A stretch of 64,000 nucleotides of DNA, taken from Gimesia aquarii (GTDB lineage: Bacteria; Planctomycetota; Planctomycetia; Planctomycetales; Planctomycetaceae). Numbering within the stretch: position 1 is the first letter of the stretch; every line of letters starts with the position of its first letter. Positions 598-58,465 of the stretch are shown one piece after another. Both the position numbers and the translations under genes were made by a program. The stretch spans positions 4,852,334 to 4,916,333 of the forward strand of contig NZ_CP037422.1 in assembly GCF_007748175.1 (NCBI RefSeq), read 5' to 3'. The notes below the pieces were generated by a model. The model did no database searches, was not told the origin of the DNA, and was given only the letters and a program-made list of their open reading frames with translations.

Positions 598-1305
598 GTG
601 GATTCAGCTCTAGATATACTCGTTGTGGCACCACACCCTGATGACGCGGAAATCAGTGTGGGTGGGACGATCCTGGCCTGCAAACAGCAGGGCCTTAAAG
701 TAGGAGTGATTGAATTAACCAATGGTGAACCAACGCCTTACGGTAGTCCAGAAATCCGTGCGAAAGAAACAGCCGCCGCGACACAAGTTCTGGAGATTGA
801 TTGGCGTGAAAATCTGGGACTTCCAAATCGAAGTTTGGAGTCAAACTTAGAAGCACGGCGTAAGTTGGCAGTGGTATTTCGCACACGACGTCCCAAAGTC
901 ATTTTGGCGCCTTATTGGGATGATGTGCATCCCGATCATGTTGCCGCCAGTCATTTGACTGATGCAGCTCGATTTTGGTCCAAATTGAGTAAAACTGACA
1001 TGGCGGGGGAACCCTATTGGCCGCCTCAGATTTATTATTTCTGGAGCATTCATCTGCGGATTCATCCTAAACCAAGCTTTGTATTCGATATTTCTGACCA
1101 CATTGAACAGAAAATGCAGGCCATTCGATGTTATGAAAGCCAGATGCTGAGGGGCCGTTCTACAGAACATCCCACTATTCTCGATGACATCCAAGATCGT
1201 GCCCGATATTGGGGCTGGTCGATCCACCGCGCCTATGGTGAACCTTATGCCAGTCGTGAGGAAATTGGATTACAAAGTTTTCTACCATTGATATCCCAGA
1301 AATGA
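598..1305 (+). CDS. bshB1: PIG-L/LmbE family deacetylase, BshB1-like
   Basis: Starts at a GTG preceded by AAGGAG. The 235-residue protein has the LmbE-fold zinc motif PHPDDAE at residues 12-18 (ligands His13 and Asp16, general base Asp15) and the second zinc motif HPDH at 111-114. The stretches NLGLPNR and APYWDDVHPDH are typical of the BshB1 subfamily, which removes acetate from N-acetylglucosaminyl-malate during bacillithiol synthesis. Length fits the family. Related enzymes act on other N-acetylglucosaminyl conjugates, so the exact substrate is inferred. No bshA or bshC gene is in the window. No signal peptide, so cytosolic. Confidence 0.8.
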   Translation: MDSALDILVVAPHPDDAEISVGGTILACKQQGLKVGVIELTNGEPTPYGSPEIRAKETAAATQVLEIDWRENLGLPNRSLESNLEARRKLAVVFRTRRPKVILAPYWDDVHPDHVAASHLTDAARFWSKLSKTDMAGEPYWPPQIYYFWSIHLRIHPKPSFVFDISDHIEQKMQAIRCYESQMLRGRSTEHPTILDDIQDRARYWGWSIHRAYGEPYASREEIGLQSFLPLISQK

Positions 1306-1329
1306 GCGTAAAGAGTGAGGGAAATAACA

Positions 1330-1348
1330 ATTTCCCAGGCTGGGAAAT
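1330..1348. repeat. 19-bp perfect inverted repeat in intergenic gap
   Basis: ATTTCCCAGGCTGGGAAAT is a 9+1+9 perfect palindrome lying 24 bases after the BshB1-like gene. It could fold as a tight hairpin but has no following T-run, so it is a poor intrinsic terminator; it could equally be a protein-binding site for the gene downstream. The rest of the 303-base gap from 1306 to 1608 is AT-rich and shows nothing else I can name. Confidence 0.4.
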
Positions 1349-1608
1349 CGAAAGTGATTTCGGAGGAAAATAACGCTTACTATATGATGAAATTTGGTTC
1401 AACCTTGAATATTCGTACTTTTATCGGTTAGACTTTGATTAACAGAGTTTAGTAATCACGACCATTTTTTATGGTACAAAAGAAGTTCATTTTGATGGCC
1501 AGTTTAGATCGATCTAAAAGTCATCAAGTTGCATGGGCTTTGTACAATCCTACCTGAGAACACTCAGTGCAATCCTTCCATTGACATTTATTGAGGAGAA
1601 CAAAGAAG

Positions 1609-3066
1609 ATGTCTCAACACTCTCGTCGCGAATTTCTTGAACAATCCATGTTTGCTGCAGCCAGTGCGGCAGCGTTGGGTGCTTCGATTCCTCATCTCTC
1701 TGCTGCAGAATCAGAATCCAGCAGTCCGAATGAAAAACTGCGAGTTGCCTTACTGGGTGTCAATGGCCGCGGTCAGTCTCATTTGAGTGCCTTTACCGGG
1801 CGAAAAGATACAGAAGTGGTAGCGGTTGTCGACCCTGACGAGAGTGTCGGGATGAAAAAAGGTGTCGGTAACGTTTATAAGAAGACCAACAAAAAACCAG
1901 CCTATTATAAAGATCTGCGAAAAGCGTTTGACGACCAGAAAATTGATATCGTCAGTATTGCCACTCCGAATCACTGGCATGCCCTCGGAGCAATCTGGGC
2001 GATTCAAGCTGGTAAGGACGTTTATTGTGAAAAGCCCGTCAGTCACAATGTGAGTGAAGGACGACGGATTGTCGAAGCAGCTCGAAAATATAACAAGATC
2101 GTTCAGACAGGGACGCAATGCCGCTCACAACCAGGTTTGATTGATGCAATCAAATTTGTCAAAGATGGTGGTATTGGTCAAGTGAAGCTGGCTCGAGGAA
2201 CTTGTTACAAACGACGAAAGTCGATTGGTCCTAAAGGCAACTATGATGTGCCTGCCAGTGTAGACTATGATCTCTGGCTTGGACCGGCACCTATGGCGCC
2301 GCTAACGCGAAAACGATTCCACTATGACTGGCATTGGCAAACACCCACGGGTAACGGTGATCTGGGGAACCAGGGGATTCATCAAATGGATGTTGCTCGC
2401 TGGGGATTAGGCGTCGACAGCATTGGAGACAGTGTGCAAGCCTACGGTGGTCGCCTCGGTTATGTTGATGCAGGTGATGTTGCCAATACACAGGTCAGTA
2501 TTCATCAGTTTGGTGATAAGCGACTTGTATTTGAAGTCCGTGGCTTAGAAACCGAAGCGTACCGAGGTGCTAAGGTAGGAGTTATCTTCTATGGTTCAGA
2601 AGGTTATGTGGTGATTCCGAGCTATAACAGCGCTTCTGCTTTCGATCTAGATGGAAAATTGATCAAGAAGTTTTCTGGTTCAGCAGATCACTTTGCAAAC
2701 TTTGTGGATGCTGTTCGCAGTCGTAAAATTAGTGATCTGAATGCGGATATCGAAGAAGGCCATATCTCCAGTGCCCTCTGTCACTTGGGTAATATCTCCT
2801 ATGAACTTGGTGAACAGGTTCCTGTGCAAGAGCTTAACGCCCGATTTACAGGTGATGCGGAAGCTCAGGAAACTTTAGGACGTTATCGCGAGCACCTGAG
2901 CAACAACAAGCTGGACCCAGCCAAGACCCAAGTCAGCTTAGGGCCTGAGTTGAGTCTTGATGGTAAGAAGGAAGTCTTCACCGGTTCAATGGCTTCCACA
3001 GCAAATCCCAAACTGACACGTGAATATCGTGCTCCATTTGTGGTTCCATCTACAGCGAAGCTCTAA
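1609..3066 (+). CDS. Tat-exported Gfo/Idh/MocA family oxidoreductase
   Basis: 485 residues from the ATG at 1609, which has TTGAGGAG 11 bases upstream; an in-frame TTG at 1591 overlaps that site. The N-terminus SRREFLEQSMFAAASAAALG is a twin-arginine signal, so the protein is exported folded, probably with its nucleotide bound. A Rossmann NAD(P)-binding domain follows (VALLGVNGRG near residue 50) and the family motif YCEKPVSHN lies near 145. The C-terminal half contains the substrate domain, with WHWQTPTGNGDLGNQGIHQMD as a characteristic block. Such exported paralogues are numerous in planctomycetes and are thought to act on sugars or cyclitols; the substrate cannot be told. A strong terminator follows. 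Confidence 0.85.
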   Translation: MSQHSRREFLEQSMFAAASAAALGASIPHLSAAESESSSPNEKLRVALLGVNGRGQSHLSAFTGRKDTEVVAVVDPDESVGMKKGVGNVYKKTNKKPAYYKDLRKAFDDQKIDIVSIATPNHWHALGAIWAIQAGKDVYCEKPVSHNVSEGRRIVEAARKYNKIVQTGTQCRSQPGLIDAIKFVKDGGIGQVKLARGTCYKRRKSIGPKGNYDVPASVDYDLWLGPAPMAPLTRKRFHYDWHWQTPTGNGDLGNQGIHQMDVARWGLGVDSIGDSVQAYGGRLGYVDAGDVANTQVSIHQFGDKRLVFEVRGLETEAYRGAKVGVIFYGSEGYVVIPSYNSASAFDLDGKLIKKFSGSADHFANFVDAVRSRKISDLNADIEEGHISSALCHLGNISYELGEQVPVQELNARFTGDAEAQETLGRYREHLSNNKLDPAKTQVSLGPELSLDGKKEVFTGSMASTANPKLTREYRAPFVVPSTAKL

Positions 3067-3095
3067 AATGTTTGAGATTTATTGTTAATAAATTT

Positions 3096-3129
3096 GGCCC
3101 ATTTGTCGTTTTGACAGATGGGCCTTTTT
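3096..3129 (+). terminator. intrinsic terminator after the Gfo/Idh/MocA gene
   Basis: A 12-bp stem (GGCCCATTTGTC paired with GACAGATGGGCC, one G-U pair) with a GTTTT loop, followed directly by TTTTT. It ends only a few bases before the promoter-like site of the next gene. Confidence 0.85.
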
Positions 3130-3136
3130 GTTGACA

Positions 3137-3145
3137 TGCTATAAT
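3137..3145 (+). promoter_or_regulatory. extended -10 promoter for the downstream synthase gene
   Basis: TGCTATAAT is a perfect extended -10 element (TG, one base, TATAAT). No -35 at normal spacing is evident; a TTGACA at 3111-3116 is 23 bases upstream and lies inside the terminator stem. Transcription would start near 3152, which excludes the upstream TTG at 3128 as a start and favours the ATG at 3197. Confidence 0.5.
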
Positions 3146-3196
3146 CCTCTGCAATTCAAAAACTGTGAGATCAACTTTTTGTATGGATACAATTTG

Positions 3197-4417
3197 ATGT
3201 TTCAGCTTTTCTCGCGTGCGAAAAAAAACGTTAAAATCAAAGTAAAGCGTGCGGTCATCCGACATCATCGCCGGTCAGGTACTGTTTTATTCAGTGATAC
3301 CACGTTACGGGATGGCGAACAGATGCCCGGCGCCACGTTGGATCCGATCGAGAAACTACAAATCGCCAAAGCACTGGAGGCGGCAGGCGTGCATTCTTTA
3401 GACGCCGGGTTCCCTGCATCTTCACAGGCAGATATCGAAGCCATTCAAAGTATGGTAGGTGTGATTAAAAAACCTGTACTCACAGCCTTGTGCCGCACAT
3501 TACCGGGTGATATTGACGCTGCCGAACTGGCATTGGCTGGAAATCCACCACATAAAAGAGGAGTGAGTCTATTTTGTGGAACCAGCCCTTTGCATCGCCA
3601 GTTTAAACTCGAGAAAAGCAAAGCGGAAGTTCTCAAACTGATCGTTGATAGTATTCAATATGCGGTAGAAAAATTTGATATTGTGGCTTTCAGTCCCGAA
3701 GACGCGAGTCGAACCGAACCCGATTTTCTGTGTGAGGTCTACCGAGAGGCGATTGCTGCCGGTGCCACGACGATTGGATTTCCAGACACGGTGGGGATTC
3801 TGACGCCTTATAAAGCTCAGAATTTTATCTGCCAGATCCAAGACCAGGTTCCGGGTATTGAAAACGTGTTGTTGGCAGTTCACTTTCACAATGATCTTGG
3901 TTTGGCGGTAGCGAATACATTAGCTTGTATTGAAGCAGGTGCAAATGTGGTGCAGTGCACTGTGAATGGTATCGGAGAGCGTGCCGGAAATGCGGCTCTC
4001 GAAGAAGTCGCGATGGCATTGTATTTACATCAGGATGAGTTTGAGCGTCCCCATCATTTGAATATCTCTCAATTAGAGCCATTGTGTCAATTGGTCTCTA
4101 ATTTGACAGGGATTTCACTCTCACCCATGAAGCCGGTGGGGGGCTGTAATATCTTTGCGACCGAAGCAGGAATTCATCAGGATGGTTTGCTCAAAAATCC
4201 TGATACTTATCTGCCTTATCGTCCAGAAACGGTAGGAGCAGATGGCATTAAGCTTGTGTTAGGACGGCACAGTGGAAAGAAAGCAATTCTACATCGGCTG
4301 CACGAATTGGGAAAAGAGCCAAACGAAAAAGTGTTGCAGCGCGTTTTAGTCGCGATCAAAGAACTTCCCAAGGGGGAACTGGTCGATGATGATCTGTTAC
4401 TGAGGCTGTCTGATTGA
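3197..4417 (+). CDS. 2-isopropylmalate/homocitrate/citramalate synthase family protein
   Basis: 406 residues from the ATG at 3197, chosen because a promoter-like element lies at 3137-3145; the frame is open further upstream and no strong ribosome binding site is visible. The catalytic TIM barrel begins with [14 protein letters not shown], the acyl-CoA/keto-acid binding signature, and contains HFHNDLGLA (metal-binding His pair) and [15 protein letters not shown]. The later block [16 protein letters not shown] is typical of this family. The enzyme condenses acetyl-CoA with a 2-keto acid. The LeuA C-terminal regulatory domain (about 130 residues) is absent, so the length fits homocitrate synthase (NifV/HCS) or short isopropylmalate synthases. 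No nif or leu neighbours help choose. It converges on purQ with a 2-base gap. Confidence 0.75.
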
Positions 4418-4419
4418 TG

Positions 4420-5235
4420 CTATTCAAAATAATTGACGGCATTACGAAAGAGCTGGATACCTGCGCCTTCACCTTCCAGGCCGAGACGCGTCCATTGGGG
4501 ATGTTGCGTTGCGAATAAAAAACGTTCAGGATGTGGCATCAAGCCTAGGATACGCCCTGTAGGATCACCCAATGCGGCGATATTGTAAGCCGAACCGTTG
4601 GGATTGATTGGATAATCCAAGATCTCTTCTTGAAGAGTTGTTTCTGCTTCTCCTGATTCACGATAACACATGGCGATTTGCTGATTGGCTTTCCACCTTT
4701 CAATAACCGCCACATCGCTCACCGCAATGCGTCCTTCGGCATGGGCAATAGGAAGTTCAATCTGATCGATTCCCTTCAGAAATACATTTTCTGGTGCAAG
4801 CACTCCGAGTTGAACCCAGAGCGATGTATATTTTCCATTAGTATTCCAGGTCAGTGTTGCATCGCGGCTTTGATTTGGTGGAGAAGGCCAGCTTTTCGCA
4901 CCTCCGGGAAGAATTCCGGCTTTGAGAAGAACTTGAAAGCCGTTGCAAATCCCCAAAACCAATTTATCTGCTGCAAGAAAATTTCCAATTGTTTCGGAGA
5001 GTTGCCCCTGCAAGTGACTGGCAAAGATCACACCGGCGCCTACATCATCCCCATAGCTGAAACCGCCGGGAAGGCAGAGAATCTGATAATCGTCTAACTG
5101 ATTGGGATTCTCCAGCAATTGAAGTAAATGAATTCTTGTTGGATGGGCTCCACAGAGATCGAATGCGTGTGCGGTTTCGATGTCGCAGTTTGTTCCGGGT
5201 GCACGTAACACACAGACTTTTGGGGAAGTTGACAT
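4420..5235 (-). CDS. purQ: phosphoribosylformylglycinamidine synthase subunit PurQ
   Basis: 271-residue class I glutamine amidotransferase that supplies ammonia for the fourth step of purine synthesis. It opens with VCVLRAPGTNCD, the PurQ signature, and contains LPGGFSYGDD. The nucleophile is Cys97 in LGICNGFQ, and the His235-Glu237 pair is in MPHPERF. Length and the absence of a fused PurL domain mean a separate PurL (and probably PurS) must be encoded elsewhere, as none is here. It starts at an ATG with no obvious ribosome binding site. Cytosolic. Confidence 0.92.
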   Translation of the reverse strand: MSTSPKVCVLRAPGTNCDIETAHAFDLCGAHPTRIHLLQLLENPNQLDDYQILCLPGGFSYGDDVGAGVIFASHLQGQLSETIGNFLAADKLVLGICNGFQVLLKAGILPGGAKSWPSPPNQSRDATLTWNTNGKYTSLWVQLGVLAPENVFLKGIDQIELPIAHAEGRIAVSDVAVIERWKANQQIAMCYRESGEAETTLQEEILDYPINPNGSAYNIAALGDPTGRILGLMPHPERFLFATQHPQWTRLGLEGEGAGIQLFRNAVNYFE

Positions 5236-20689: not shown

Positions 20690-21769
20690 ATGAAATTGTG
20701 CCATTCATTGAACAAGAATGATGCAGCTACTGCATTACTTAGACACATTTTAAGTAATGTGTTGGGATGCGCGCTCGTTCTCATGGTTTCACAAGTCACA
20801 GCTGAGGAAGTGAAAGTCAGGAAACCGGTTTCTCCGGTTGTCAAGACAAAGCTTTCTGAAGTCTTTTTTAAGACAGTGCCTGACTCACTGGAGGATTTGC
20901 AAGAGATTGAGAAACAAGTGACTTCTCTCACGAAAGCCTCAATTCACAGTACTGTTTCAGTTCGTGTGGGAGACGCTCAGGGAAGTGGTGTTATTATCGA
21001 CAATAAATCTGGATATATCCTCACAGCAGCTCATGTAATTGGGTTAGCACAAAAAAATGCGACCATCATTTTACATGATGGCCGAACTCTTAAAGGGAAA
21101 ACAATGGGTTTAAATCGGGGAATGGATGCCGGATTGATCAAGCTCGTTGATGAAGACAAGACAAAAATTAGTAAACTCCCTGTAGTAAAGATGGGAGATA
21201 ATTCCAAAGTGGAGCCAGGAGACTGGGTGATTGCCACTGGACACCCCAATGGATATCAGGCAGGGCGTCCTCCTGTTGTACGTTTAGGTAGAATTGTTTC
21301 CCAAAAGAAGCATCTTATTCAAACGGATTGCACTCTAATCGGTGGAGATTCCGGCGGACCTCTCTTTAATATGAGTGGGGATGTGATAGGCATTCACAGT
21401 CGGATCGGACCTTCAACAAGTTGGAACTTTCACATTCCGGCATCAGCGTTTCAGAACGATTGGGAAAAGCTTGTCTCCGGTGATATGTGGGGAGCAAAAC
21501 CTTTAGGGCAAAATGCTGTTTTAGGGGTGAATGGAGTTAACACTGATCAAGGCTGCAAAGTCGTGGGTGTGACACGAGGCTTCCCAGCACAGATTGCGGG
21601 AATAAAAGAAAATGATGTCATTATTCAATTAAATAACCAGAGAATTACAGGAATTGAGCAACTGGCTGAGGTCGTTCAGCGTTATAAGCCTGGACAAACC
21701 ATTCAGATCAAGTTGATTCGAGACAAGAAAACAATGACGTTCGAAGTGCAATTGGCAGCCAGAGACTAA
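20690..21769 (+). CDS. HtrA-like trypsin-family serine protease with PDZ domain
   Basis: 359 residues. An N-terminal hydrophobic segment (about residues 20-38, cleavage near VTA-E) exports it to the periplasm. The trypsin-like domain has an intact triad: His115 in TAAHVIG, Asp146 in RGMDAGLI and Ser221 in GGDSGGPLFN. A single C-terminal PDZ domain covers about residues 270-359 (VLGVNGVN, GIKENDVIIQLNNQ, GQTIQIKLIRD). This is the S1C/DegP layout, acting in envelope protein quality control or processing. It is followed at 21860 by a degenerate relative, probably in the same transcript. Confidence 0.88.
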   Translation: MKLCHSLNKNDAATALLRHILSNVLGCALVLMVSQVTAEEVKVRKPVSPVVKTKLSEVFFKTVPDSLEDLQEIEKQVTSLTKASIHSTVSVRVGDAQGSGVIIDNKSGYILTAAHVIGLAQKNATIILHDGRTLKGKTMGLNRGMDAGLIKLVDEDKTKISKLPVVKMGDNSKVEPGDWVIATGHPNGYQAGRPPVVRLGRIVSQKKHLIQTDCTLIGGDSGGPLFNMSGDVIGIHSRIGPSTSWNFHIPASAFQNDWEKLVSGDMWGAKPLGQNAVLGVNGVNTDQGCKVVGVTRGFPAQIAGIKENDVIIQLNNQRITGIEQLAEVVQRYKPGQTIQIKLIRDKKTMTFEVQLAARD

Positions 21770-21859
21770 TAAAATGCCAGGACAGGCTGAGATGTTTGAT
21801 TCTATTTTGGATTTAAGATCACAGTCGCAATTATGTATTTATGTATTAAGGAGAAACTC

Positions 21860-22951
21860 TTGAACCAGGATCAAAAAATTAAAGGTACAGAATCGAGTCG
21901 TCGATTTTTGGCGATGCTTTTGATCGTTCCGCTGTTCATGGGAAGTCTTACTTCATATGGCTATGCCTGGGATCAATTACAACCAAGTCAATTGACAGAG
22001 GGCTCTCAGATCCGAAAAGCTTTTCGTGCAGTGGTCTCCACACCTCGATCATGGACGGTGCGAGTACGCTCGAACGGAAAAGAAGCGTCTCTGGGCGCCA
22101 TTGTTGGCTCAGATGGCTGGATTTTAACTAAGGCCAGCCAACTTCAAGGTAAGATCACCTGTGAGTTATCAACGGCCGAACGCTTTGAAGCAGAAATCAT
22201 CGGAGTAGACGGAAAGCTGGATTTGGCTTTGATTAAGATTGATGCACATAATCTTCCTACAGTCAGGTGGCGTTCTGCCTCAGATCCCAAGGTTGGACAA
22301 TGGCTCGCAACACCTGGTTTAAGTATGTCACCTGTGAGTGTAGGCGTACTCAGTGTTTCAAGACGTTCCGTCAAGCCTGCTCCTGGAGTTCTGGGAGTAC
22401 AAATTGGTGATGCCGAAGGTGGAGCATTGGTGAAATCAGTGCTTCGAGAAAGCGGCGCTGAACAGGCAGGTCTGAAAGCCGGTGATGTGATATTAAACGT
22501 TGCTGGTGTCGAGATCGAAGATGCGAATGCGCTCTCTAGTTTTGTTCGCAAATTTTTGCCTGGTGACCGGGTCCTTTTGAAGGTTTTAAGAGAAAAGGAG
22601 GAACTCACAGCCGAAGTCATCCTCACGGACCCCCAAATGCTGATTTATGATCGTTTACGCGAAATGCAGAAAAAGATGGGTGGCGCCTTAAGCCGCCGTA
22701 AAACTGGCTTCACTGAAGTTTTTCAACATGATGCTGTATTAAGACCAGAAGATTGTGGTGGAGTCATTGTGGACCTTAAAGGACAGGCCGTAGGTTTGAA
22801 TATTGCGCGTGCTGGTAGAACAAAGTCATTTGCAATCCCGGCTAACCATGTGATTCCAATGATTGAAAAGTTGAAACTGAAAAAGTATGCTCCCTACAAT
22901 CCACTGAAGGATACTAAGGAACAGACGGTATCGACTGGGATGTCATCCTGA
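21860..22951 (+). CDS. degenerate S1C protease with PDZ inserted in the protease fold
   Basis: 363 residues from a TTG at 21860, chosen because AAGGAG lies 7 bases before it; an ATG at 21833 precedes that site. A signal segment ends near residue 37. The first trypsin barrel is recognisable (LGAIVGSDGWILTKAS, KLDLALIKI, VGQWLATPG, VGVLSVSRR) but the catalytic His is Ser93 (TKAS in place of TAAH) while Asp121 remains. A PDZ domain then occupies about residues 174-257. After it the second-barrel signature resumes: FQHDAVLRPEDCGGVIVDL, with Cys299 where Ser should be, and FAIPANHV. Likely proteolytically inactive, perhaps a partner or regulator of the upstream protease. Confidence 0.75.
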   Translation: MNQDQKIKGTESSRRFLAMLLIVPLFMGSLTSYGYAWDQLQPSQLTEGSQIRKAFRAVVSTPRSWTVRVRSNGKEASLGAIVGSDGWILTKASQLQGKITCELSTAERFEAEIIGVDGKLDLALIKIDAHNLPTVRWRSASDPKVGQWLATPGLSMSPVSVGVLSVSRRSVKPAPGVLGVQIGDAEGGALVKSVLRESGAEQAGLKAGDVILNVAGVEIEDANALSSFVRKFLPGDRVLLKVLREKEELTAEVILTDPQMLIYDRLREMQKKMGGALSRRKTGFTEVFQHDAVLRPEDCGGVIVDLKGQAVGLNIARAGRTKSFAIPANHVIPMIEKLKLKKYAPYNPLKDTKEQTVSTGMSS

Positions 22952-56082: not shown

Positions 56083-58155
56083 TTATTTAGGCTTAGCCAG
56101 TTTGACTGTCAACTTGACCCGTTTCCCGTCACGCATCACAGTGACCTCGACCTGATCGCCGGGGGAAAACATTCTCAAGGCTAGATCGAAATCATCGAGA
56201 CCTCCAATTTTTGTCTTTCCCATCTTGATGATGGCATCACCAGCTTTGAGTCCTGCTTTGTCGGCAGGACTGCCGGGAGAAGCGCCAGAAATGTGATAAC
56301 CAGGACCCTCTCCCCCGAAGTCGGGGATACTACCAAAGTAAGGCCGATTTCCAGAACGCATGTTGGTAGCAGGCCGTTCAATTTTGACATATTTGGGGCG
56401 ATCAGGGTTCTCAGCAGTCGCAACAGCGATTTCCTCCAAAAATCCGACGATGCGTTGCATGCCGGGAATATTAATTTTGTTCCAATCATCAGAAGGACGG
56501 TGATAATCGCTGTGCGTCCCTGTAAAGAGGTGTAATACTGGGATTTGTTTCCCATAAAAGGAACTATGATCACTGGGGCCAAATCCCTCTGGTTTCAGAG
56601 ATAGTTTTAAATCATATTCTTTCGCGGTTTCTTCGACTAATTTTTTCCAGCGGGGGGCTGTTCCTGTTCCAAAAACGGTGAGCTTGTCATTCGTCAGTCG
56701 TCCTACCATATCCATATTGAGCATGGCGACTGTATTTTTGATATCAAATGTCGCATTCTTAACATAGTGGGCAGATCCAATTAGCCCCCGTTCCTCTCCG
56801 GTAAATGCAATAAATACGACGCGGCGCGGCAAAGGTGTTTTTCGAGCGGCCAGTCTTCGAGCCAGCTCAATGAGTGCGACCGTTCCGGATGCGTTGTCAT
56901 CGGCGCCGTTATGAACGTCAGTCGAACCGGGAGCCAATGAACCTTCACCTCCGTAACCTACATGATCATAGTGTGCTCCAATCACGACGGTTTCATCTGC
57001 AAAAGGTCCTTTTCCTTCCAGGACACCAATTACGTTTTTGACCTCCGTACGAATTTGCTCAACTTGAATTTCTCCTTTTGCTTTCCATTGAGGCAAGGCA
57101 AAGCTTTCGGGCTTAAGATCGGTATCGATTTGGGCTTCCAATTTTTGAAGTGTCGGTTTACCAGCGTCCTTAAAAAGTTGATTACATGTTTCGATTGTGA
57201 TATGTGCAATCGGAATTGAACGACCATCTCCACTGCCAGCGTATCCAAATTTCATTAGCACATCGAATGTTCCGTTTTTCAATCGCTTCCGTGCTTGCAG
57301 AACTTCATGCAGTGCTTTTTTTAGTTCACGGTCGGCTTCCGTTTTTTTGTCTTTGCTTGATTTTTCCCAGTTTTCTGTGGTGGTAATAAGTTCCTCGATG
57401 GCATCTTCTTCAAGTTCCTGTGCTTCTTTTTTGTTTTCTTTAGTCGAATAGGAATCATTCACAAATAAAATCGCTTTGGCGCCTTTCCCAAAGGCCGTAC
57501 TCACTTTATATCGAAGGGCCGCATAGCGGGAGATCCCATGTGCGCCGGCAAAGGGACTTTTTTTGTCTCCTTGTTGTGGTGTCCGTCTCAGGATAATGGC
57601 GACTTTATCTTTGACATCAATGCCTGCGTAGTCGCTATATTTGACATCTTTCGCATCGATGCCATATCCACAAAAGACAAGCTCTGCATCAAATTTTCCA
57701 GAGCCTCCGAATGAGCAGGAGCGAAAATCTTTGTCATATTTCAGTGGGATCGTTTTTCCATCAGGTCCTACCAGCTCAAGCTGATTTACAGATCCCAATT
57801 TGCTGCCAGTGTTGATTGTGAATTTCTGAAATGCACTATTATTAACTGATTGTACATTCAGACCGGCTGCTTTGAATTCTTTCTCAATGTAATCTGCAGC
57901 TAAATTGATTCCCCGAGTCTTAACACCACGACCTTCCAATTCATCAGAAGCCAGGTATTTGATTGCATCCAGCATTCGCTGATTGCTCTCTGAATTCAGG
58001 TTTGATTTCACATTTGACTTGGTAGTTTTTGCTGGTGTTTTTCCCAGTACCAGTGTAGGAGTTTGCAACAAAACCATGCAAAAGATCACTGATGCCAGTA
58101 AATAGATTTCTATAATTGGTTTTTTTGATAGGCGTTTTGTGTTCAGAACAGACAT
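56083..58155 (-). CDS. exported M28 metallopeptidase with PA and PDZ domains
   Basis: 690 residues; signal segment near residues 15-40. A PA domain (about 90-330) contains LVFCGYGIDAKD, SDYAGIDVKDKVAIILRR and KAILFVND, with a Lys/Glu-rich probable coiled-coil insert (EAQELEEDAIEEL onwards). The M28 domain has the two-zinc set: VIGAHYDHVGYG (His and Asp, about residue 390), GADDNASGTVALIEL (bridging Asp), FTGEERGLIGSAHY (catalytic Glu), NMDMVGR and HSDYHRPSD (final His). A C-terminal PDZ domain (SPADKAGLKAGDAIIKMG) follows. Likely an aminopeptidase acting on periplasmic or outer-surface peptides. Confidence 0.88.
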   Translation of the reverse strand: MSVLNTKRLSKKPIIEIYLLASVIFCMVLLQTPTLVLGKTPAKTTKSNVKSNLNSESNQRMLDAIKYLASDELEGRGVKTRGINLAADYIEKEFKAAGLNVQSVNNSAFQKFTINTGSKLGSVNQLELVGPDGKTIPLKYDKDFRSCSFGGSGKFDAELVFCGYGIDAKDVKYSDYAGIDVKDKVAIILRRTPQQGDKKSPFAGAHGISRYAALRYKVSTAFGKGAKAILFVNDSYSTKENKKEAQELEEDAIEELITTTENWEKSSKDKKTEADRELKKALHEVLQARKRLKNGTFDVLMKFGYAGSGDGRSIPIAHITIETCNQLFKDAGKPTLQKLEAQIDTDLKPESFALPQWKAKGEIQVEQIRTEVKNVIGVLEGKGPFADETVVIGAHYDHVGYGGEGSLAPGSTDVHNGADDNASGTVALIELARRLAARKTPLPRRVVFIAFTGEERGLIGSAHYVKNATFDIKNTVAMLNMDMVGRLTNDKLTVFGTGTAPRWKKLVEETAKEYDLKLSLKPEGFGPSDHSSFYGKQIPVLHLFTGTHSDYHRPSDDWNKINIPGMQRIVGFLEEIAVATAENPDRPKYVKIERPATNMRSGNRPYFGSIPDFGGEGPGYHISGASPGSPADKAGLKAGDAIIKMGKTKIGGLDDFDLALRMFSPGDQVEVTVMRDGKRVKLTVKLAKPK

Positions 58156-58465
58156 AAAGGCTCTTTCTCTATTATTTGTCTGCTAAAGGTTGGTTTATTA
58201 TCACTACGAAAAGCAACAAAAACGTGTTGGAATTCTCATTCACTCCAAATTTACACTTCATATGACTATTGTCTTTATTTTCGCATTTGAGATGCTGAAT
58301 GGAAGTCACGTTTTCAAGATTAATTGAAAATCGACACAGTTCACAACTCTATTTTAAGTTTGGCTTTACGTGGAACAGGCTTGAACTGGCGAATTGATAT
58401 CGAAGAAGGTAGAGTTTTAGATTTAGCCAAATATCGAGTTCCCCAAATTGACAATGGGACAAACA

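Follow-up and report, generated by a model that had tools for sequence, protein, structure and literature searches.

The gene at positions 21860–22951 (forward strand) of the window, the whole 64,000-nucleotide stretch of Gimesia aquarii DNA analyzed here, encodes a dead relative of the HtrA proteases; its HtrA-type fold harbors an entire PDZ domain, inserted at loop L3 of the second barrel. This gene and that of an active HtrA-like protease just upstream almost always accompany each other in relatives, often as a single fused gene, which makes it probable that the dead copy perceives a signal and either activates or directs the live protease. Judging from sequence, the chances are about even that it is an inactive sensor subunit, which would regulate its active partner in trans through the PDZ domain inserted in L3.

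Architecture of the pseudo-HtrA

Translation starts at a TTG codon at 21860, 6 bases downstream of the ribosome-binding site AAGGAG (21848–21853, forward strand), and both the TTG start and a GAGGAG-like site are kept in most Gimesia orthologues. A longer ATG open reading frame from 21833 was rejected as the start; no AAGGAG-like site accompanies it. The likely signal peptide, read from the sequence, is RRFLAMLLIVPLFMGSLTSYGYA (21860–21967), and the signal-like N-termini of the dead subunit and of its active partner suggest that both are exported to the periplasm. Continuing on the forward strand, an N-terminal helix and the first barrel follow (21986–22267), the barrel having high pLDDT in the model described below and a profile match to HtrA, and then come the opening strands of the second barrel up to loop L3 (22268–22369; model strands 112–115 and 124–134). 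The PDZ domain occupies 22382–22624 (Pfam PDZ_2, E 2.3e-14; model strands and helices 144–218) and carries a VLGV ligand-loop motif. Beyond a linker (22625–22711), the remainder of the second barrel and a closing helix (22712–22882), with the motifs QHD, PEDCGG, and NIARAGRT, are placed by their profile match to HtrA and by the model.

Several lines of evidence locate the PDZ domain inside the protease fold. First, in the numbering of the 372-residue open reading frame, Pfam finds only the first part of the Trypsin_2 profile at 88–163, followed by PDZ_2 at 185–264. Second, a family profile built from 16 sequences (A1) aligns with the solved DegP-like structure 22kg in three pieces: profile positions 76–176 match chain residues 95–200, positions 289–341, the second-barrel half that follows the PDZ domain in the dead family, match residues 206–263, and positions 176–259, the PDZ domain itself, match residues 268–363. 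In 22kg, five residues separate the two protease pieces, which are split by the PDZ domain and linker in the dead family; thus, protease segments that are contiguous in DegP are interrupted by the PDZ domain here. In a profile–profile comparison of the dead family with the partner, barrel 1 and the PDZ domain aligned and barrel 2 was skipped, as expected with a changed domain order. Third, in a template-free model of the dead subunit (44 alignment rows; pLDDT 74.7, pTM 0.62) both barrels and the PDZ domain are confident, whereas the linker (model residues 223–247) has pLDDT below 50 and the placement of the PDZ domain relative to the barrels is not fixed. The PDZ domain exits the barrel after model strand 124–134, which corresponds to L3. 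VIA-align superimposes about 180 residues, spanning model residues 7–309 and hence reaching across the insertion, on the protease domains of DegS, AlgW, DegP, and DegQ with Z scores of 24–26 and rmsd values of mostly 2.2–2.9. Foldseek whole-chain TM-scores are low, about 0.3, probably because the PDZ domain is placed differently from that of DegP, and the aligned core was judged by VIA-align instead.

A model from seven close Gimesia orthologues only reached a pLDDT of 40; the usable one also drew on sequences of the partner and of phage trypsin-like proteins, with PDZ and protease entered as separate rows. Because such rows push the protease core towards the HtrA fold, the model is a less independent confirmation of the topology than one from a deep orthologue alignment would be, and because the rows were picked by homology, the topology rests equally on the alignment to 22kg. 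Circular permutation is ruled out, as both protease parts are in their native order, and a sequencing or assembly artefact is ruled out, as the architecture is conserved across many genomes.

These results agree with an earlier note on this DNA, made without database searches, which had placed a PDZ domain inside the protease fold: Pfam, the three-piece alignment, and the fold predicted for the protein alone concur, and the elements it described all lie at the positions it gave, apart from a small correction of the PDZ domain from about residues 174–257 to about 22382–22624 (mature residues 139–219). The note was right that the domain lies inside the protease domain, but it put the insertion between the two barrels, and it is actually within the second barrel at L3.

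Two further sequence elements are conspicuous. The linker signature MGGxLSxRRxGF, read from conserved columns of profile A1, is strongly conserved although the model cannot place the linker with confidence, and NIARAGRT in the L2 region is nearly invariant. Either may form a partner-binding surface. Elsewhere in the window, a 699-residue open reading frame (56083–58182, reverse strand) has a C-terminal PDZ domain that resembles those of the HtrA pair.

Loss of the catalytic residues

Profile alignments show that Ser replaces the catalytic His of the window protein (TKAS versus TAAH; T-K-A-S, Ser codon 22136–22138), that Cys replaces the nucleophilic Ser (PEDCGG; 22754–22756), and that Asp (22220–22222) is kept, just as had been read from this one sequence. 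The losses extend through the family. Among the 69 members with a readable first barrel (two further rows of 71 were left out because they showed the partner's barrel, their own not being recognized), the His position holds Ser in 68 and Asn in one, and His in none. At the nucleophile position, Ser is likewise found in none of 71; Cys occurs in 57, Met in seven, Ile in three, Val in two, and Gln and Thr in one each. The Asp of the triad is kept in all members. The search for homologues with the same substitutions that the earlier note had proposed thus found none that keeps the His/Ser pair.

The frequent Cys, the almost unvarying Lys found two positions ahead of the lost His, and the His often seen in QHD could together be taken to mean that the protein is an enzyme after all, with Cys and an unusual base serving in thiol proteolysis or redox chemistry, for instance. 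In 14 members, however, Cys gives way to Met, Ile, Val, Gln, or Thr with the rest of the signature kept. Hydrophobic residues in place of Cys mean that catalysis cannot be the shared function of the family, although members of the Cys majority might still use thiol chemistry, and we consider the enzymatic reading highly improbable.

With respect to the features that define the S1C proteases, the double barrel of the HtrA kind is present, as seen in the profile matches to barrels 1 and 2 and in the superposition on DegS and DegP. The His-Asp-Ser triad is not, being Ser-Asp-Cys in the window protein and without its His/Ser pair in every member, and the PDZ domain lies between two parts of barrel 2 instead of C-terminal to the protease domain. 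By strict membership, then, this is not an HtrA protease, on account of both triad and domain order; its probable role is that of a regulatory HtrA subunit.

Pairing with an active HtrA

The partner, encoded at 20690–21769 on the forward strand, is a probably exported HtrA-like protease by its Pfam matches and triad. Trypsin_2 is matched at full length (98–235), His, Asp, and Ser are intact, PDZ_2 is C-terminal (277–355), and L3 is shortened. In 34 of 71 mapped cases, the specific partner is the next open reading frame upstream on the same strand, and in 26 others the two form a single chain with the active protease N-terminal to the dead domain. The genes are non-adjacent in the other 11, two of which lie at contig ends; among the nine unlinked cases in contig interiors, eight have the specific partner elsewhere (38–44% identity, well separated from other HtrAs). 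Co-occurrence points the same way. Outside the genus, 20 of 42 relatives have both genes, 19 have neither, three have only the dead gene (all draft genomes, two with fragments only), and none has only the partner. When counted by genus, the numbers are 17, 18, 3, and 0, respectively (Fisher p 4e-8), although shared ancestry lessens the weight of such counts. Together, the fusions, tandem genes, and co-occurrence suggest that the dead subunit and its partner associate. They strongly support the earlier proposal of an adaptor or pseudo-protease partner of the upstream HtrA as far as partnership goes, with the functional step (adaptor, activator, or scaffold) a matter of interpretation.

The partnership admits more than one role for the dead subunit. 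It could mainly build or cap the oligomer, much as plant Deg7 relies on its degenerate domain for trimerization, and the active-plus-dead fusions do resemble Deg7 (PMC3473262). A canonical fold would be enough for this purpose and would need no inserted PDZ domain, yet that domain is present in essentially all members mapped, and we regard a purely scaffolding role as improbable. Alternatively, a dead subunit within the partner's oligomer might hold the partner off until a ligand binds its PDZ domain. The same evidence for partnership would fit, and DegS-type PDZ domains can inhibit (PMC6686036), but nothing specific favors inhibition over activation, and fusion in one chain leaves no free pool of inhibitor; we give inhibition very little weight.

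Loop L3 and regulation in trans

In HtrA proteases, L3 connects the PDZ domain with the active site, and an L3 Arg (DegP R187, HtrA1 R302) makes contact with loop LD of the adjacent monomer; the R302A mutation abolishes the activity of HtrA1 (PMC5666011). At the equivalent position, immediately ahead of the inserted PDZ domain, 54 of 69 dead subunits have Arg (51 counted from GxxS, another three read by eye), among them the window protein (22364–22366, in GxxSxxxR). Partners favor no residue at this position (Arg in eight of 58), and their L3 is short: 41 of 58 have a spacing of 11 between that G and the Q of QTD, versus about 20 in canonical HtrAs, as read by eye. The most divergent dead subunits have Tyr, Phe, or Gly in place of the Arg and a further small group has His, which means that an arginine mechanism cannot be general.

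The contrast between Arg-bearing dead subunits and partners with a short, Arg-less L3 is our main reason for preferring activation in trans over a plain adaptor. Because the partner's L3 is shortened and lacks the activating Arg, the L3/PDZ sensor would be supplied by the dead subunit. This product of a dedicated gene would work with the active HtrA encoded just upstream, keeping the protease fold and holding its PDZ domain in the very loop that relays the signal to a neighbor's activation domain. Binding of a peptide or protein C-terminus to the inserted PDZ domain would move L3, and this movement would in turn order the partner's loop LD and active site in trans, so that sensing and catalysis were divided between two subunits. 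A fuller version, to which we give somewhat less than an even chance, is a two-subunit HtrA machine in which the active protease lacks a working L3 relay and the dead paralogue is its obligatory allosteric sensor in trans.

One point against a sensor is that many active partners keep a PDZ domain of their own and might regulate themselves. In five fusions (L088, L094, L096, L113, and L114), the stretch between the partner's catalytic Ser and the dead barrel is shorter than about 85 residues; no partner PDZ domain fits there, and the inserted PDZ domain is thus the only one. Pfam likewise finds a single PDZ domain in L113, the inserted one.

The inserted domain could instead capture substrates or their C-termini, with the dead fold merely docking on the partner and L3 having no allosteric role. 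A substrate adaptor of this kind would account for the ligand-loop motif [x]LG[VIMLF], present in 66 of 77 entries, and for the two or four PDZ copies in three relatives (L106, L107, and L108), as expected for extra binding capacity. It leaves unexplained why the PDZ domain is located in L3 of a complete protease fold and why most members retain the L3 Arg, and we consider it rather unlikely.

Distribution and evolution

The dead family occurs in 76 of 392 sampled Planctomycetota genomes, that of the window included; searches of viral contigs and of plasmids found no relative of the dead subunit. In the tree, the dead domains group in a single clade (SH-aLRT 99), the partners in a second one (97), and the three canonical HtrAs of the genome fall outside both. 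The fused and separate states have interchanged at least seven times.

Several relatives depart from the common plan. L106 (open reading frame 1115–4033, reverse strand), L107 (1144–4584, forward), and L108 (4033–7056, reverse) belong to one clade of fused proteins; in them, L3 of the dead domain holds two to four PDZ domains. An 837-residue Gimesia protein (L102, G013:C1:7407500-7416400; open reading frame 2421–4934, forward strand) has three tandem trypsin-like domains by Pfam, of which the first and second seem degenerate and the third is a divergent member of the dead family with Val as nucleophile residue and a weak PDZ domain; a match similar to it was found in G014. A second cluster, with three HtrA-like genes (L008, L003, and L002; G000:C1:6612260-6617400), lies outside the window. 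It has one intact gene, a 351-residue gene with Ala for the nucleophilic Ser (NPGAAGG) and a motif without His, and a 665-residue gene in which Tyr stands for Ser (SPVNYGG) and whose product has PDZ-like stretches and a hydrolase-like C-terminal region. The cluster seems to be a further, independent set of pseudo-proteases.

Relation to known systems

Regulation in trans between HtrA subunits has usually been studied in homo-oligomers, in which the roles of sensor and catalyst are inseparable. Here evolution appears to have put the two on separate genes, which would make the L3-to-LD relay testable one subunit at a time. The family also adds a widespread pseudo-protease to the planctomycetes, a group with a poorly understood cell envelope. 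None of the 12 families listed in a survey of PDZ proteins from 1,474 microbial genomes has this architecture (PMC6411480), and our literature searches found no description of a dead HtrA with a PDZ domain in L3.

Parts of the arrangement have parallels. First, the pseudo-protease MamO is required for MamE-dependent proteolysis (PMC4794232), likewise a pairing of a degenerate with an active HtrA. MamO differs in having a C-terminal transporter domain, no inserted PDZ domain, a retained His, and a Thr nucleophile; the dead subunit ends about 20 residues past its last helix and has no Pfam match to such a transporter domain. The two are likely of separate origin. Second, a single chain of plant Deg7 contains an active and a degenerate protease domain, in the order protease-PDZ-PDZ-inactive protease-PDZ-PDZ, the degenerate one serving trimerization (PMC3473262). 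The 26 fused relatives share the active-then-degenerate chain, whereas the window pair is two genes, and the domain maps differ in the inserted PDZ domain and in lacking a PDZ pair after each protease domain. Yeast Nma111 likewise combines an active with a degenerate protease domain in a single polypeptide. Third, the C-terminal processing proteases Prc and CtpB embed a regulatory PDZ domain within the protease domain (PMC6686036), but theirs is the unrelated, catalytically active S41 fold, and the only Pfam matches above the cut-off in the dead subunit are Trypsin_2 and PDZ, with no Peptidase S41 domain. None of MamO, Deg7, or Prc/CtpB joins a dead HtrA fold to a PDZ domain in L3. Finally, with DegP, DegS, and DegQ (S1C) the dead subunit shares its protease fold, PDZ type, predicted export, and L3 Arg position, and it differs from them in the loss of the catalytic His and Ser and in carrying its PDZ domain in L3 rather than after the protease domain.
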